Source: an uncultured Lachnospiraceae bacterium
Lineage (GTDB): Bacteria > Bacillota > Clostridia > Lachnospirales > Lachnospiraceae
Length of the DNA stretch: 64,000 bases
Assembly: GCA_902780385.1 (NCBI GenBank)
Contig: CACZFF010000009.1
Span: forward strand, 19,008 to 83,007
Reading direction: 5' to 3'
Of the stretch, positions 1,296 to 45,750 are shown one piece after another. The first letter of the stretch is position 1. The number at the start of each line of letters is the position of its first letter. The translations under genes and the position numbers were made by a program. Under the pieces are notes generated by a model that saw only the letters and a list, made by a program, of their open reading frames with translations, did not search any database and was not told the origin of the DNA.

Positions 1296-1553
1296 TTAGA
1301 AGTTCTCTTTCAGGAATTTCTCGATTGCTTCTGCGCAAGCTGCTTCGTCGTCGCCTTCGACCTGAACGGTGATCTCATCGTTCTGCTTAACAGCCATGCC
1401 CATCAGAGCAAGGAGCTTTCTCATATCGCAGCTCTTATCGCCCTTCCATACAGTGATCTTGGAGCTGAACTTCTTAGCCTCTTTAACAAGGATTCCAGCG
1501 GGACGAGCGTGAATTCCTAACGGATCAGTAACTGTGAATTTAATCTCTTTCAT
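1296..1553 (-). CDS. ptsH: HPr phosphocarrier protein, catalytic type without Ser46
   Basis: Cytoplasmic phosphocarrier of the PTS, 85 residues, the normal size. His15 sits in the canonical GIHARPAG context and accepts phosphate from enzyme I. At the usual regulatory position 46, which in Bacillus is Ser in the KSIMGVMSL segment, this protein reads RKLLALMGM, with Lys at exactly residue 46. It should therefore carry phosphate to sugar permeases but not be phosphorylated by HPr kinase. The start ATG has AAGGAGA nearby. A -10-like TATAAT lies at 1638-1643 on the minus strand without a good -35. A second HPr paralogue with the opposite residue pattern lies at 39938-40216. Confidence 0.97.
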   Translation of the reverse strand: MKEIKFTVTDPLGIHARPAGILVKEAKKFSSKITVWKGDKSCDMRKLLALMGMAVKQNDEITVQVEGDDEAACAEAIEKFLKENF

Positions 1554-1913: not shown

Positions 1914-3838
1914 TTACTGGCCTGCACACTTGACATCATTGTAGTCATCCGCATTGGTGAGGAGGACAACAACTGTGTCGGGATGGTTTGCAGCTTTGAT
2001 CTTATCAATGTCGAAGTTGAGGATCAGCTGGCCGGCCTTGACCTGATCGCCCTCAGCAACCTGAGGATCGAAGCCGTCGCCGTTCATGGCAACAGTGTCA
2101 ACACCGACGTGGATCAGAAGTTCCATGCCGGAGGGGCTTGCGAGGCCGATGGCGTGCTTGGAATCAGCGACAGAGGTGATCTCGCCGTCGAAAGGAGCTA
2201 CGACATAACCTGCGGTAGGCCTGATGCCTACGCCGTCGCCGAGGACGCCGCTTGCAAAGGTCTCGTCTTCGATGTTCTCGCGGGCGATGACTTCGCCGTT
2301 TGCGGGAGCCTTGACTTCACCGGCTTCACAGCTGATGACGGTCTCGGTGGGAACCTTGATCTCAGCAGCGGGAACAGCGGCGGGTTTCTTCTTCTCTTCT
2401 TCTTTCCAGAGGATGTTGGTCAGGACGAACGCAATACCGCCGGAGATAAGGAGAACGATGGTGTACAGTCCTGCATTGTCGATGGTCAGGTAGCCGGGAA
2501 TGCCGGTTACGCCGTAAGCCTTAGCGCCAATGCCCATAAATGCAGCAACAAGAGCACCGACAGCACCGCCGATCATACCGGAGATGAAGGGCTTGAAGAA
2601 GCGCATATTGACACCGAAGATCGCGGGCTCTGTGATACCCAGGGAAGCGGACAGAGCGGAAGGGATCGCGACAGATTTTGTCTTTGCGTTTTTAGCCTTG
2701 AGACCGACCGCAAGGCAGGCGCCGAACTGTGCGAAGTTGGCTGCGGAAGCGATGGGCATCCAGGTGTTGAGGCCGCCTTCAACAGAAAGCATACCGGCCT
2801 CGATAACGTTGTACATGTGGTGCAGGCCCATGACGACGGTCCAGGGATAGATCGCGCCCATGATACCGGAACCAAAAGGATTAGAAACGAGAATCTGTGC
2901 GCCCTGCAGAACCTTTGTCTCAAGGAAGGAGAAGATAGGTCCAATCACAACAAGAGTGACCAGCGCGGTAGCGAAAACGGTGCAAAGAGGAGTGACGAAC
3001 AGGTCGATCATCTCCGGAACGTGTTTGTGCAGCCATTTTTCAATGGTGCTCATAAACCAGACTGCGATAATGACAGGAATTACATGGCCCTGATATCCCG
3101 ATCTCTGAATAGATACGACATTTCCTATCAGGTTCCAGCGGGGTATAGCAGGAGCAGCAACCTTAGCCCAGTCTCCGGTAAACAGATAAGGGCTTCCTCC
3201 CTCTATTTCCATATTAAAGAACTTATAAATCTGTTCGGCATTCGCAACATTCCAGCCGTTCAGGAATGCGGAGTGAATCATCAGCAGACCGATGACCGCG
3301 CCCAGGAACAGGTTGCCTCCGAAGACTCGCGCCGCAGAGATTGCGACAATAACAGGCAGATATGCGAACGCTGTATTTGCGACAGTGTCAAGGAACGCAT
3401 ACCAGTCGCTTCCTGCAAAATTCAGTCCATCGATCTTACCAAGAGCCTCGACGAGACCCATCATAAGACCGGATGCAACGATTGCAGGAAGGATCGGGAC
3501 GAAAACGTCACCGATTGTTTTCAGCGCGCGTTTCCAGATCGGAGCCTTGGCTGCCGCGGCCGCCTTGACGTCGTCCTTTGTACCCGCCGCAACACCTGTG
3601 ATTGCTACGAACTCGTCAAAGACCTTATTGACGGTGCCGGTGCCGATGATCAGCTGGAGCTGTCCGCTGGACTCGAACATACCCTTGACGCCGTCGATCT
3701 CCTCGAGAGCCGCCTTGTTAACTTTCCCGTTATCCGCGATAACGAGACGCAGTCTTGTCGCGCAGTGCGCGGCGGAGACCACGTTTGCGCCGCCGCCGAT
3801 ATTATCAGCGATCTCTTGCGCACATAATCCAATGCCAT
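1914..3838 (-). CDS. scrA: PTS sugar permease EIIBCA, sucrose type, apparent 5' frame break
   Basis: Membrane permease that imports and phosphorylates a disaccharide. Order: EIIB with its phosphorylated Cys in SAAHCATRLRLVI, a hydrophobic EIIC domain with LHHMYN and SASLGITEPAIFGVN motifs, then a glucose-type EIIA with phospho-His in LLIHVGVDTV. EIIC motifs resemble sucrose/trehalose permeases (ScrA, TreB); sucrose is the best guess. The frame holding all domains has no normal start upstream of a GTG inside NVVSAAHC (3782). A well placed GGGAGG-ATG at 3838 encodes MALDY, the expected N-terminus, in another frame. A small indel around codon 6 (near 3820) would join them: a real lesion, an assembly error, or a rare ATT start. 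The promoter and operator lie about 110-150 bases upstream. Confidence 0.85.
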
Positions 3839-39802: not shown

Positions 39803-39846
39803 TAAAAATATCGCGTCCGGGGATTGCTCCTCCGGACGCGTTTTTG
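39803..39846. terminator. Bidirectional terminator after whiA operon
   Basis: A 9-bp stem CGCGTCCGG / CCGGACGCG with T-runs on both sides: ATATTTTTAC on the minus strand and TTTTTGTTTT on the plus strand. It ends the hprK-murB-rapZ-whiA-HPr-like cluster. Confidence 0.88.
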
Positions 39847-39937: not shown

Positions 39938-40216
39938 TCAGACAGCTGCGCAGGCCTTTTTCTCTCCACAGCAGAGGAAAGCGGAAATCTCATCCATAGC
40001 CCTGGCCTCATCGTCTCCATCAATCATAACCTCTATACTATCGCCGGACACAGCCTGAAGAGACATCATGCCCATGATACTCTTAGCATTTACCTTCCTT
40101 GTACCATGTTCAAGATACACACGACTCTCGTACTTGCTCGCAACCTGTACCAGCTCTGCAATAGGACGGCCTTCCAGTCCCTGCGGCCGATTGATCAAGA
40201 TCGATTTCCTCAGCAT
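39938..40216 (-). CDS. HPr-family regulatory protein (Crh-like) with Ser46 but no His15
   Basis: A 92-residue HPr fold protein. The HPr-kinase site is intact: NAKSIMGMMSL with Ser at exactly residue 46. The enzyme I site is lost: the loop reads GLEGRP with Glu at residue 15. By analogy with Bacillus Crh, which has Gln15 and Ser46, it should be phosphorylated by HprK and act as a CcpA corepressor without carrying phosphate to sugars. A Cys-Cys-containing tail (FLCCGEKKACAAV) is additional. It follows whiA, the position of crh in Bacillus, and ends the operon. AGGAG precedes the ATG. Confidence 0.92.
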   Translation of the reverse strand: MLRKSILINRPQGLEGRPIAELVQVASKYESRVYLEHGTRKVNAKSIMGMMSLQAVSGDSIEVMIDGDDEARAMDEISAFLCCGEKKACAAV

Positions 40217-40281: not shown

Positions 40282-41289
40282 TCAGGAAGGATTTTTTTCC
40301 TCCCGTGCTTTCTGCGCGAGCGCGGACAGTTTCCGGAGTCGATGATTCATGCCCGATCTTCCGACCGGTGGTTTGGCGAGTTCTCCCAGTTCCGTCAAAG
40401 AAGCACCGGAGTGCTCTGTACGAAGATCTGCTGCTTCGCGGAGCGGGGCAGGAAGTGTCTGTAAAATACCGTTCTCACGAAGATAACGGATATCCTCCAT
40501 CTGTCTGCCCGCGGATTTGACGGTCTTGCCGATATTGGCGGTCTCGCAGTTGACACGACGGTTTACGGAGTTTCTAACCTCTTTGAGAATGCGCGCATTC
40601 TCTGTCGCCATCAGGCCGACAGAAGTTTCCATCAGATGCAGAAGTGTGACAATATCCTCGGAGTCCTTTACATAGACAACAAAGTACCTTTTGCGGCGTG
40701 TCATCCCTGCGTGGATTCCGTGTCTGGAGAGCACCCCCTGCAGCTGCAGTGCCTGCGGCTCCGAAAAGCATCGGTATTCCAGATGATATCTCCTGACCGG
40801 GTCGTTCATAAACCCTGTGCACAAAAACATCTCCCGAAGATACGCTCTGCTCCTCTTCCCGCCGACAAGCTCCGGCTCCAGCGTCCCGTCCTGAATACGC
40901 AGCGTCCCGTCCCTGTTCAGAAAACGGAGCCTCCGCAGCAGATCTGTGATCTGCTCCGAAGCATCCAGCAACAGGTCCGGAGGAACTGCTTTTTCTCTGT
41001 TTGCGGGTGTCCCGGCACCTTCAGTCTGTGCTTCCGTCTTCATTTCAGTGAAAGACATCCACGAAGCCGGGAAACCAGAATTTATATTAACGTTTTTCTG
41101 AATTAAAGTAAAGCACTTTCTTAAGGCCAGAATATTGCCTGCGGAAAAATGCAGCCGGATCAAGCCGTCTTCCGATGTACTTAAGGTACAGATATTGGCA
41201 ATGAGAGCCGCAAGGGCCGTATCCCTGTCCTGCCTCCCGGGCGGGATCAGTCGGGCCGCTTCCGCCCGCAGATTACCGGAAAAAGACAT
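40282..41289 (-). CDS. whiA: WhiA-family DNA-binding protein
   Basis: A 335-residue WhiA family protein combining a LAGLIDADG-like N-terminal fold (MSFSGNLRAEAARL, GGKRSRAYLREMFLCTGFMNDP, EYRCFSEPQALQLQGVL) with a C-terminal helix-turn-helix (HSGASLTELGELAKPPVGRSGMNHRLRKLSALA). In actinomycetes it controls sporulation; in Firmicutes it affects chromosome segregation and division. It lies between rapZ and the HPr-like gene; yvcK, which usually separates rapZ and whiA, is absent. Confidence 0.95.
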   Translation of the reverse strand: MSFSGNLRAEAARLIPPGRQDRDTALAALIANICTLSTSEDGLIRLHFSAGNILALRKCFTLIQKNVNINSGFPASWMSFTEMKTEAQTEGAGTPANREKAVPPDLLLDASEQITDLLRRLRFLNRDGTLRIQDGTLEPELVGGKRSRAYLREMFLCTGFMNDPVRRYHLEYRCFSEPQALQLQGVLSRHGIHAGMTRRKRYFVVYVKDSEDIVTLLHLMETSVGLMATENARILKEVRNSVNRRVNCETANIGKTVKSAGRQMEDIRYLRENGILQTLPAPLREAADLRTEHSGASLTELGELAKPPVGRSGMNHRLRKLSALAQKAREEKNPS

Positions 41290-41352: not shown

Positions 41353-42210
41353 CTACTTTTTTGAATCCCTGTGGTAGATCTTGAGCGCGTAATCCCCATG
41401 GTCCTTAAGGTCCTCATACAGGCAGTTGGCAATAGTCACGCTGCGGTGCTGACCGCCCGTACAGCCGATGGCGATCACCAGCTGGTTTTTTCCCTCATCG
41501 ACATAGTAGGGGATCAGGAAGCGGATCATGCTGCTCAGCATTTTCCTGAATTCGGTCGTCTGGGGAAAAGAGAGCACATAATCCGAGACAGGCTTGTCAT
41601 TGCCTGTCAGGTTCTTGAGCTCATCGATGTAATAAGGATTGGGCAGAAAACGGACATCAAAGACAAGATCCGCATCGTGGGGGATCCCGTTTTTGAAGCC
41701 GAAAGACATGACCGAAACGATCAGGGAATTGTATTTCTCGTCGTCGACAAAAACCCTGATCAGTTCCTCGCGGAGTTCTCGCACAAGCAGACTGGACGTA
41801 TCAAAAACATAGTCCGCCTTGGATTTGATCTGGCGCAGGATCTCGCGCTCCTTGCGGATCCCGTCCTCCACACGGCCCTGGGGCTCGCAGGGATGGGCGC
41901 GGCGAGTCTCTTTATAGCGCTTGATCAGTGTGTCGTCACTGGCGTCCATGAACAGGATCTCATAATCATATCCCCTCTCGCGCAGCGCGGACAGATCTTC
42001 CTCCACATAGATAAAAGGACGGTCAGCGCGCACATCGAGTCCCAGAACAACCTTGTCTATGTTGCTGCCGGGCATGAAAACCAGTTCCATAAATTTATCG
42101 ATCAGGCGGACAGGCAGATTATCGACGCAGTAATATCCTCCGTCTTCGAGAATCTTGATCGCAGTTGCCTTTCCGCCGCCGCTCATTCCTGTCACAACGA
42201 CAAAACGCAT
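41353..42210 (-). CDS. rapZ: RapZ-family nucleotide-binding protein
   Basis: A 285-residue RapZ/YvcJ protein. The enterobacterial member is an RNase adaptor for GlmZ; the Firmicutes role is less clear, with nucleotide hydrolysis reported. The ATG at 42210 has GGAGGGGG upstream. The N-terminus reads MRFVVVTGMSGGGKATAIK: the usual Ser/Thr after the P-loop Lys is Ala here, though a Thr follows. The C-terminal domain IAIGCTGGQHRSVTIANCLYEDL is typical. It lies downstream of murB. Confidence 0.94.
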   Translation of the reverse strand: MRFVVVTGMSGGGKATAIKILEDGGYYCVDNLPVRLIDKFMELVFMPGSNIDKVVLGLDVRADRPFIYVEEDLSALRERGYDYEILFMDASDDTLIKRYKETRRAHPCEPQGRVEDGIRKEREILRQIKSKADYVFDTSSLLVRELREELIRVFVDDEKYNSLIVSVMSFGFKNGIPHDADLVFDVRFLPNPYYIDELKNLTGNDKPVSDYVLSFPQTTEFRKMLSSMIRFLIPYYVDEGKNQLVIAIGCTGGQHRSVTIANCLYEDLKDHGDYALKIYHRDSKK

Positions 42211-42256
42211 ATTTCCCCCTCCATGCCAAACTCTTCCGGATTGCTCAGGTGCGGGC

Positions 42257-43234
42257 TCAGAATTCACCCAGGAAAATCACTTCACGCTCCAGCCTGACTC
42301 CTGTGTCTTCGAATACTTTTTTCTGGACATCACCGATCAGTTCCCGGATCTGTGCGGAAGTAGCTCCTCCCTTGTTGATGACAAAACCGCAGTGTTTCTC
42401 GGAGACCTGTGCTCCGCCCACACTGTAGCCGGCAAGGCCGGCGTCCATGATCAGCTTGCCTGCAAACATTCCCTCCGGCCGTTTGAATGTGCTGCCGGCA
42501 CTGGGATATTCCAGGGGCTGTTTGGAACGGCGCCTTTCAGCCAGATCCGCGATCCTGGCGCGCACCTTCTCCGGATCTTCCGGCATCAGTTCAAACTGTG
42601 CCCGCAGAGCCACCGCATCGATGCTGCGCAGCACACTGGTCCTGTAGCCGAAGGCCATCTGTCTGCCGCTGTAGTCCCGGATGCTGCCGTCCGGCATCAG
42701 CAGACGCACCGAGCGTGTGACAAACCGGATCTCGCCGTCATAGGCGCCCGCATTCATCACCAGACCTCCTCCCACAGTGCCGGGAATACCAGCCGCAAAT
42801 TCTAGACCGGTCAGGCCGTTTTCCATGGCTGCCAGTGCCGCCGCCTTGAGTGTGGCTCCGGCGCCGGCAGTGACGCAATTTCCCTCCACGCAGACTCCGT
42901 CGAGAGGAAAATCCCCCTCCAAACCTGCAGACAGGTCCTGCGCACTCTGACTCCCCTCCGCGGAAGGGGCAGCCGCTGCGGTGACGATCACCCCCCGGTA
43001 GCCGCCGTCGCCGATCAGAAGATTTGTGCCTCTTCCCAGAAGGAAATACGGCTCTTCCCGTTCCCTGAGCAGCTTCAGGAGAGATGCCATTTCCTCTTCC
43101 GTCTTCACGACCGCAAGGACATCCGCCGGCCCGCCGGTCCGGAACGAACAGTGCCGGTCCATCGGTTCATTATAATAAATCTGCCCCTGGGGCAGAATCT
43201 GCTCCATTTCCTCCTGCAATGCTCTGTGAATCAC
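42257..43234 (-). CDS. murB: UDP-N-acetylenolpyruvoylglucosamine reductase
   Basis: FAD enzyme reducing UDP-GlcNAc-enolpyruvate to UDP-MurNAc, an early step of peptidoglycan synthesis. It has 325 residues from a GTG at 43234 that follows GGAGGAGGAGAC; the longer ORF to 43366 reads through repeat copy E and hprK and is rejected. FAD-binding motifs HCSFRTGGPADVL and AAGIPGTVGGGLVMNAGAYDGE are present, with the catalytic Ser in PSAGSTFKRP and Glu in VSEKHCGFVINKG. It lies between hprK and rapZ. Confidence 0.95.
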   Translation of the reverse strand: MIHRALQEEMEQILPQGQIYYNEPMDRHCSFRTGGPADVLAVVKTEEEMASLLKLLREREEPYFLLGRGTNLLIGDGGYRGVIVTAAAAPSAEGSQSAQDLSAGLEGDFPLDGVCVEGNCVTAGAGATLKAAALAAMENGLTGLEFAAGIPGTVGGGLVMNAGAYDGEIRFVTRSVRLLMPDGSIRDYSGRQMAFGYRTSVLRSIDAVALRAQFELMPEDPEKVRARIADLAERRRSKQPLEYPSAGSTFKRPEGMFAGKLIMDAGLAGYSVGGAQVSEKHCGFVINKGGATSAQIRELIGDVQKKVFEDTGVRLEREVIFLGEF

Positions 43235-43245
43235 GTCTCCTCCTC

Positions 43246-43304
43246 CTTCGCGGCACAAACATCCGGAGCGAAAAATATTGCATCGGCAATATTTTTCACT
43301 CTTC
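43246..43304. repeat. Multi-hairpin repeat, partial copy E
   Basis: Only the end of the repeat is present: CGCGGCACAAA and the terminal stem GCGAAAAATATTGC/GCAATATTTTTCAC, whose core differs from copies A-D yet pairs perfectly. The hprK stop codon TGA lies inside it, as for amylosucrase in copy A. Confidence 0.8.
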
Positions 43305-44246
43305 TTCCTCATCTTTTTCTCTGGATTTGCGCATGAGATTTTCCTGTACACGTTTGTACAGTTCATGTGCGGCGTTGTATCCCATGAGCTTCTGGCGGTG
43401 GTTGGCCGCGGCGGACTCGCAGATGATCGCCACGTTTCTGCCCGGGCGGACCGGAACGCGGTAGCAGATCACCTTGTTGCCCAGATATTCTGAATAATTG
43501 TCCTCCATGCCGAGGCGGTCATATTCCCGGTTCTTGTCCCATTCTTCCAGATGGATCTCCATGTCAATACTCTGGCTGTCACGGACGCTGGAAACGCCGA
43601 ACAGGGTCTTGACATCAATGATGCCGATGCCGCGAAGTTCGATAAAGTGCTTGGTGATGGCAGGAGCGATTCCGATCAGGGTCACCTCGCTGACCTTGCG
43701 GATCTCGACCACGTCGTCCGCAACAAGACGATGGCCGCGCTTGATCAGTTCCAGGGCCGCCTCGGATTTGCCGATACCGCTGTCACCGGTCAGCAGGACA
43801 CCGATCCCGTAGACATCCACCAGGACACCGTGAATGGAAATGCAGGGAGCCAGGCGCACATTGAGCCAGCGCAGGATCTCCGCCATAAAAGGACTGGTCG
43901 CCTGGTTGGTGAGATACATGGGCATTCCGTGTTTGCGTCCGATTTCCATGATGACGTCATCCGGGTACATACCACGGGTAAAAATCACCATGGGGACATC
44001 CAGGGAAAAGAGCTTTTCGAAAGCGGCTCTCTCCGACTCTTCGTCCATCTGCTCGATATAGGAATGCTCCACCAGGCCGATCAGCTGGATTCTTCCCGCT
44101 GCGAAATGATCAAAATAGCCCGTCAGTTCCAGTGCGGGACGGTTGACCTCAGTCTGCCTGACCTTGATCCCTTCCGTGGAGATCTCGGGCGCGAGGTTGA
44201 CCAGATTCATTTTTTCGACGATTTCATCAATGCTTACATACGACAT
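43296..44246 (-). CDS. hprK: HPr kinase/phosphorylase
   Basis: Bifunctional sensor of glycolytic state that phosphorylates Ser46 of HPr-type proteins and removes the phosphate. It has 316 residues: an N-terminal domain, then the catalytic domain with Walker A LLTGDSGIGKSE (about 152-163), the family sequence IRGIGIIDVKTLFGV-like region (LRGIGIIDVKTLFGV) and the Ser-binding loop IDMEIHLEEW. Of the two HPr proteins in the window only the one at 39938 has Ser46, so that one is its expected substrate. The last codon pair GAG-TGA lies in repeat copy E. Confidence 0.96.
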   Translation of the reverse strand: MSYVSIDEIVEKMNLVNLAPEISTEGIKVRQTEVNRPALELTGYFDHFAAGRIQLIGLVEHSYIEQMDEESERAAFEKLFSLDVPMVIFTRGMYPDDVIMEIGRKHGMPMYLTNQATSPFMAEILRWLNVRLAPCISIHGVLVDVYGIGVLLTGDSGIGKSEAALELIKRGHRLVADDVVEIRKVSEVTLIGIAPAITKHFIELRGIGIIDVKTLFGVSSVRDSQSIDMEIHLEEWDKNREYDRLGMEDNYSEYLGNKVICYRVPVRPGRNVAIICESAAANHRQKLMGYNAAHELYKRVQENLMRKSREKDEEEE

Positions 44247-44349: not shown

Positions 44350-45750
44350 TCACCGTTTTTTCAGCACAATGGTGGTCATCTCATGCTCGTCGCCCTCAAC
44401 GGAAATGATGGGGGTCACGGATGCGCGGGAGTATATGCCCGCCACCCTGCCGCCATAGAGGTAGACACCTGTCATATTGGAGAAGGACTGCCAGCGCGGT
44501 TCCCCGGCACCGAAATAAATATTATCCGTTCTATAGGGCGTCACAAATTCCTGAAGAATGTAATCCGTGTCCGCGCGCAGGTCGAGCTGTTCATTCCACT
44601 CCTTTTCACTGCACAGGCGGCCCGGATAAATGCCGTGTGCCCCATAGGAATCCCGGGGTTTGATGATCCATTTATCTTTGTCTCTGCGGACGTCCTCACG
44701 GTCTGCCGTCTCCCGGGTCAGCATTGCCGTGAAGGGCACATGGGCCGCGACAAAGGCATTGTCTTCTGCGGAAAGGAAGGCGGCTGTGCGGGGATCATGC
44801 AGGATGCGGAAGAGCACCTTATCGTGCACAACCTGCGTGCAGAAGTCCCCGATCAGGCAGACACTGCGGTCCCGGACGGCCTGCAGAAAAGGCCCGACCT
44901 CCTCTTTGTGGGCAAGAATGTCACTGGTCACAGCGCGTCGGTAGACCGCGTCGACAGCATAACCCTCTCCGGTCACAAGCCTGCCGTTCTCATAGCGCAT
45001 ATCGCGGATCTCCGCCACATAGGCCCGGCAGCCGGCACGTTCAAAGGCCTCCCTGAAGGCCGTAAATTCTGCGGCAGAGGAGCCTTTTTCAAGAAAATCG
45101 ACGATCGCGACAGCGGGAAGCGCGTCTCTGACGACTGCGTTTTGTCCGTCTGCATTCTGTTCTCTTGTGTTTTGTCCCTCTGCACTTTGCTCTTTTGTGT
45201 CTCGTCCCTCTGCATAAATGCGGAGGAAGGTCCGGACCCAGGAGTCAAAGAGCTCGAACATGGCCTGGTCGTACCGCTTATCCATCTCACGGTAGAGCAG
45301 GGTATTGCGGTAGGTGCGGTAGAGCTCGGCGTTCTCATTCATGGCGCTGCTGCCGTCGGCATTGAACTCGCAGAATTTAAACTGCCCCGTCTCCTCGTTG
45401 AGGAAAATATCCAGACGGCAGACCGGCAGCAGAGTGCTGTAGTCGGGGCGGTGCAGGATCATCTCCTCGAGCTCCGGCGAAAAGCCGAACAGGGCACGGT
45501 AATCAGGCTTGTCCAGGTATTCCCCGATCACACGGACCAGAATCCTCCAGGCCTGCTCCAGGTCACTTTTCAACTTCGCAAAACCTTCTTCGGAAAAATA
45601 TTTGGGGAGATAGCCGAATTTGATCGGCACTCCCTTATAAGTCGCTGTTCCCTGCCGCATCTCTTCAATCTGGGCACGGCCGGAAGCTGTATGTGCGTCG
45701 AAATCCCGGAGCACCAGTTCACGGGGTTCGGCATCTATGGTCATTTTCAT
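44350..45750 (-). CDS. ATP-grasp-like protein (glutathionylspermidine-synthase-like)
   Basis: Not firmly assigned. It has 466 residues resembling circularly permuted ATP-grasp / glutathionylspermidine-synthase-like proteins: VCRLDIFLNEETGQFKFCEFNADGSSAMNE, then KDKWIIKPRDSYGAHGIYPG as a likely ATP-binding segment, and YILQEFVTPYRTDNIYFG. The substrate is unknown; peptide- or amine-ligation is typical for the fold. The middle carries an in-frame repeat region (EGRDTKEQSAEGQNTREQN) from a 30-bp tandem repeat. It lies between hprK and uvrC. Confidence 0.65.
   Translation of the reverse strand: MKMTIDAEPRELVLRDFDAHTASGRAQIEEMRQGTATYKGVPIKFGYLPKYFSEEGFAKLKSDLEQAWRILVRVIGEYLDKPDYRALFGFSPELEEMILHRPDYSTLLPVCRLDIFLNEETGQFKFCEFNADGSSAMNENAELYRTYRNTLLYREMDKRYDQAMFELFDSWVRTFLRIYAEGRDTKEQSAEGQNTREQNADGQNAVVRDALPAVAIVDFLEKGSSAAEFTAFREAFERAGCRAYVAEIRDMRYENGRLVTGEGYAVDAVYRRAVTSDILAHKEEVGPFLQAVRDRSVCLIGDFCTQVVHDKVLFRILHDPRTAAFLSAEDNAFVAAHVPFTAMLTRETADREDVRRDKDKWIIKPRDSYGAHGIYPGRLCSEKEWNEQLDLRADTDYILQEFVTPYRTDNIYFGAGEPRWQSFSNMTGVYLYGGRVAGIYSRASVTPIISVEGDEHEMTTIVLKKR
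45141..45214. repeat. 30-bp in-frame tandem repeat
   Basis: Two and a half units starting at 45141, 45171 and 45201, each close to TTTGTCCCTCTGCACTTTGC then TCTTTTGTGT. A multiple of three, it encodes the repeated AEGQNTREQ-like segment of the ATP-grasp-like protein. Confidence 0.8.

Follow-up and report, generated by a model that had tools for sequence, protein, structure and literature searches.

We found that the gene at 39938-40216 (minus strand) of the window, by which we mean the whole 64,000-nt stretch of Lachnospiraceae DNA that was analysed, encodes an HPr-like protein of 92 residues with Glu15, Arg17, Ser46 and a Cys-bearing tail. The product is probably a Crh-like signal protein with one site, served only by HprK and uncoupled from the PTS. 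In the textbook HPr, a single molecule serves both sugar uptake, through His15, and carbon-source signalling, through Ser46. We tentatively propose that in Lachnospiraceae this two-site HPr may have been divided into a PTS carrier (His15, Arg/Lys46) and a whiA-linked signal protein (Ser46, Glu15). HprK would then drive a carbon-status pathway that runs without the PTS or canonical CcpA and acts on a receiver yet to be named, and the family genome G225, in which no enzyme I was found, would be the pure form of this arrangement.

Direct counting placed Glu at residue 15 (GLEGRP), Arg at 17 and Ser at 46 (NAKSIMG), and the PF00381 score was 93.7 bits (cut-off 23). Both results bore out the original prediction of an HPr paralogue adjoining whiA with Glu15 and Ser46; the His15 of a PTS HPr is replaced by Glu15. 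The top-scoring NCBIfam model was NF010354 (77.2 bits versus a cut-off of 123), which we take to be the PRK13782 model built on Crh. The AlphaFold model had a mean pLDDT of 88.4, with the C-terminal residues 86-92 disordered (pLDDT < 50), and its best Foldseek matches were HPr and Crh structures, which confirmed the HPr fold. By sequence, the nearest solved structures were 7ff5, a phosphocarrier of Ruminiclostridium cellulolyticum with Asp at site 15, and then Crh.

An AGGAG stands a little ahead of the ATG. Compared with the four close relatives L059-L062 over codons 1-82, the codon differences were concentrated at third positions (3/6/34, 7/4/29, 7/7/41 and 13/12/50 at positions 1/2/3, respectively), and 39938-40216 behaves like a real gene. 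A decaying HPr copy without function would account for the lost catalytic His. However, it is hardly credible in view of this third-position bias, the retained Ser46 and helix residues, and the whiA-linked copy present in 19 of the 20 family genomes read.

The gene is the last of a co-directional cluster, hprK-murB-rapZ-whiA-HPr, on the minus strand. Directly upstream is whiA (40282-41289; TIGR00647, 191.4 bits, cut-off 44.1), which ends 65 nt before the HPr gene on the same strand. The rapZ (yvcJ) match at 41353-42267 (NF003828, 348.5 bits, cut-off 244) begins at residue 22, and the initial ~20 residues of its longest ORF are probably non-coding. The longest murB ORF (42257-43366; NF010480, 329.9 bits, cut-off 259, match from residue 55) overlaps hprK, and thus the true murB start is probably downstream. 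The HPr(Ser) kinase/phosphorylase gene hprK (43296-44246) is the only hprK found in the window's genome, and its TIGR00679 match (365.6 bits, cut-off 240) confirmed that the kinase predicted there is real. In addition, a terminator-like hairpin, a consensus match only, lies at 39812-39840, about 100 nt beyond the HPr stop codon; it has a T tail on the plus strand and, by eye, a weaker T run after it on the minus strand. The 466-aa ORF adjoining hprK (44350-45750, minus strand) had no NCBIfam match at E 0.001.

To describe the relatives, one genome per species was scanned, and out of 554 confirmed hits the best 80 served as named loci (titles mostly Lachnospiraceae). Among these best 80 of 554, residue 15 was E in 72, G in 4, D in 3 and V in 1, and His was found in 0/80, while Arg17 was present in 79. 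Ser46 was present in 80/80, a count that is biased because the scan used two seeds and one of them, KSIMGMM, includes Ser46; N43, K45 and I47-M51 were invariant in the same best 80, partly due to the construction of the scan. Within these best 80 of 554, whiA lay upstream in 77 loci (in the remaining 3 the HPr gene is at a contig end), hprK was on 62, and the cluster with murB, rapZ and whiA was conserved around the HPr gene. Meanwhile, a search of 150 family genomes gave some HPr match in 148. Residue 15 was E in 29 and D in 1 of its 30 best matches (window genome included), and whiA adjoined the HPr gene in 30/30; His15 was absent from all 29 best matches in other family genomes (28 E, 1 D). 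The 80 named relatives, these 29 best matches and the 19 whiA-linked copies described below overlap in lineage. The expectation that Crh-like HPrs beside whiA are common in the lineage was supported by the 19/20 family genomes with such a copy and by whiA on 77/80 named loci.

Glu15 had been suggested to mimic phosphorylated His15, as a built-in phosphomimic that would make the protein permanently resemble HPr-His15-P to responding targets. An acidic residue (E or D) was indeed found in 75 of the 80 named relatives (best 80 of 554) and in 18 of the 19 whiA-linked family copies. Furthermore, repression in Thermoanaerobacterium was relieved by a His15Asp HPr that the authors termed phosphomimetic (excerpt of PMC3526391). 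However, a relative 80% identical to the window's protein has Val15, four others have Gly15, and the whiA loci of other families carry Q in 4, H in 4, and K, N, T and Y in 1 each (n = 12). In addition, enzyme I was not found in G225, and thus no His-P state would exist there for Glu15 to mimic. We regard mimicry as improbable: the acidic majority speaks for it, and the Val15, the Gly15 and the residues of other families speak against it.

The Cys-Cys tail (FLCCGEKKAC), originally singled out as an added feature, is present in the sequence, but not as a family-wide feature. Two tail cysteines were found only in L059, L060 and L062, and among the named relatives (best 80 of 554) Cys82 occurred in 10/80 and Cys83 in 1/80. 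We rejected the tail as a functional feature because the Cys pair is confined to the closest relatives.

In the window's genome, four HPr domains were found, namely H15/K46, E15/S46, H15/N46 (a dehydrogenase fusion) and D15/T46, the last two aligned by eye. The first is the PTS HPr at 1296-1553 (minus strand; profile match and residue reading), which keeps His15 (GIHARP) and has Lys at 46. The only enzyme I found in this genome (N-domain at 789-1154) lies downstream of it, and a sugar PTS EIIBCA (1914-3782) lies upstream. The residue pattern is thus reversed between the PTS HPr and the E15/S46 protein. No HPr with Ser46 other than the latter was found in this genome; the assembly is 92% complete, and a second such HPr or a CcpA may have escaped it. 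Since Lys46 is found in the PTS HPr next to enzyme I, PTS flux and the HprK signal would run on two separate proteins. The H15/N46 domain (L003, 445-1749, minus strand, contig C20) is fused to a D-2-hydroxyacid dehydrogenase in a 434-aa protein. The D15/T46 protein (GLDARL; L004, 1495-1752, plus strand, contig C19) follows shortly after a gene that looks by eye like a mannose-type PTS EIID, and its Thr46 could be another HprK site.

The HPr sets of 20 family genomes comprised 70 loci, 69 with an HPr and one (L252) without, after about 30 weak short matches were left out; these counts do not use the KSIMGMM seed. A whiA-linked copy was found in 19 of the 20 genomes, with residue 15 E in 16, D in 2 and Q in 1, and Ser46 in 19/19. 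By comparison, all 16 enzyme-I-linked family HPrs had His15, and position 46 was R in 7, A in 2, K in 1, G in 1 and S in 5. A His-less whiA-linked protein with Ser46 and a His15 protein without Ser46 occurred together in 14/20 genomes. However, 16/20 also carry an additional HPr in which His15 and Ser46 are combined, and thus the split is clean in no genomes other than the window's, G061, G225 and perhaps G062, where one HPr was left unread.

Other HPr-like sequences were also seen in the family. A third class in L174, L179, L184 and L235 (GLHLRPAG, AKSVLSVLGAC) has both His15 and Ser46; it adjoins glmM in L174 (TIGR01455, 586.1 bits) and elsewhere ORFs that look by eye like YbbR/CdaR, and the ORF beside it in L235 had no NCBIfam match. 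Many short HPr-like ORFs in the 20 genomes matched PF00381 only past the His loop (from profile position 18-21 on), and the control for the PF00381 search also gave matches in Haloferax and other control genomes.

HprK was found in 45 of the 46 genomes searched with the window's own HprK protein as query; in the remaining one (G044), no HprK and also no HPr match was found. A control with PF07475 gave matches in 3 of 14 control genomes but missed B. subtilis, which has hprK, and the protein query was used for the wider survey. In G225, a family genome listed as 100% complete, there was no enzyme I match, the sole full-length HPr match was the E15/S46 protein, and HprK was present. In G004, no enzyme I was found though HprK is present; it is also the one family genome of the 20 in which no whiA-linked HPr was found though HprK is kept. 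The original prediction of a regulator-only HPr in a Clostridia genome is strengthened by two results, namely that the window's genome showed no Ser46 HPr besides the E15/S46 protein and that this protein is kept with HprK in G225, where enzyme I was not found. The Crh-like whiA-linked type stands, whereas the proposed service to CcpA and mimicry by Glu15 are weakened.

The outgroup consisted of 67 loci outside the family, taken from a search of 98 genomes of the class and chosen for their resemblance to the family profile, which biases Ser46 there. Twelve of the 67 were whiA-linked; residue 15 was H in 4, Q in 4, and K, N, T and Y in 1 each, with Ser46 in 12/12. Gln15 was thus found in 1 of 19 whiA-linked family copies versus 4 of 12 whiA-linked loci outside the family. 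In a tree of 95 rows, the 50 whiA-linked rows of the family formed one clade (100/97), the GIHARP-type enzyme-I-linked HPrs formed a separate clade, and B. subtilis Crh grouped with the whiA-linked HPrs of other Clostridia families, outside the family clade. The best tree had 6 changes of His15 over all 59 rows and 3 among whiA-linked rows. That many families lost His15 independently is only suggested by these sequences, because a single clade of all 26 His-less whiA-linked rows was not rejected (AU p 0.0861, 59 rows). Besides, six loci of other Clostridia families (L144, L150, L151, L155, L260 and L265) carry a group of HPrs with Glu15 and Lys17 and had no whiA match nearby; PDB 7ff5 (Asp15, Lys17) looks similar to this group.

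The protein could also be a classical Crh, whose Ser46-P form serves as CcpA corepressor. The gene order whiA-crh is as in Bacillus (excerpts of PMC6171935 and PMC10714963), and Ser46 and Arg17 are present. For CcpA itself, the TIGR01481 (ccpA) cut-off was reached in 0/150 family genomes and also in 0/98 class genomes, and is thus uninformative on the family. We therefore rejected this model as a test for CcpA presence and used the four HPr-contact residues of CcpA, which we take to be Tyr, Asp, Arg and Lys, with positions from structure papers. Seven of the 20 best class hits had all four, versus 0 of the 12 best family hits, among which L048 came highest with three of the four, having Glu for Asp. 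The window's genome had 14 CcpA-like matches; among the 10 highest, which were the ones taken further, 7 could be aligned and 5 of these cover the contact positions. None of these 5 readable LacI-family proteins had all four residues or more than one of them, which weakened the case for CcpA as the partner. A His-less HPr next to whiA does not preclude a CcpA with these residues: in G205, another Clostridia genome, the whiA-linked HPr has Gln15 and a LacI protein carries the full set of four. For the window's protein, we consider the corepressor role improbable. Since a CcpA of standard form was not found in the window's genome, a CcpA-independent output in the family is favoured by the sequence comparisons.

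For the Crh-like, HprK-only signal protein that we prefer, the mechanism may be as follows. HprK is known to act on Ser46 both ways, depending on ATP, fructose bisphosphate and phosphate. With Glu in place of His15, the protein would be unable to accept phosphate from enzyme I, and the HprK of the same cluster would phosphorylate and dephosphorylate Ser46 according to these three signals. The phosphate state of Ser46 would switch binding partners. Likely outputs would be methylglyoxal synthase (MgsA) or some different target, for example a LacI-type regulator of divergent sequence or a sugar ATPase. The window's genome has an MgsA gene (160.5 bits, cut-off 146.9), and an MgsA match was found in 21/21 genomes, 20 of them over the cut-off. 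In B. subtilis, unphosphorylated Crh inhibits MgsA (excerpt of PMC9631020, citing Landmann 2011).

Alternatively, the protein might report carbon status to its neighbours MurB, RapZ and WhiA, and thus to cell-wall precursor supply and division, not to sugar genes. The conserved cluster with murB, rapZ and whiA is consistent with this; likewise, whiA, glmR and crh of B. subtilis form one operon, for which a shared function was suggested (excerpt of PMC10714963). However, what argues for such reporting is gene order, and the same excerpt states that the division defect of B. subtilis whiA is not due to lost crh expression. We consider reporting to the neighbours unlikely, if somewhat less so than mimicry or corepression.

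If our reading is true, a main carbon-control pathway of Lachnospiraceae differs from the Bacillus model, with its receiver yet to be found. This large gut and rumen family has HprK and a Ser46-only HPr, often a PTS HPr without Ser46, and no recognised CcpA. In the literature, seen mostly as titles and openings of abstracts, we recognised no description of the whiA-linked E15/S46 protein, and nothing relevant on 7FF5 was found. Crh-like proteins in Clostridia have precedent, as far as the excerpts go: Ccel_0806 of Clostridium (Ruminiclostridium) cellulolyticum has been proposed to send a Crh-like signal to regulators of the LacI type (PMC3656788), and T. saccharolyticum has been reported to have a BLAST match to Crh (PMC3526391). 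Our additions to these precedents are the residue pattern seen across the family, the reciprocal loss of Ser46 from many of its PTS HPrs and the lack of a recognised CcpA.

Compared with known systems, the window's protein shares with HPr (PtsH), the PTS phosphocarrier, the fold and the Ser46 region, but it lacks His15 and is not beside enzyme I. The R. cellulolyticum phosphocarrier 7ff5 likewise combines a non-His residue (Asp) with Ser46 in a clostridium, but has Lys where our protein has Arg17; it comes from the same species as Ccel_0806. Crh of Bacillus shares with our protein the HPr fold, the absence of His15, Ser46, a gene directly after whiA and hprK in the genome. However, Bacillus Crh has Gln15 where our protein has Glu15, and no CcpA was recognised in the window's genome. 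Furthermore, unlike Bacillus crh, the gene described here has hprK within the same cluster.
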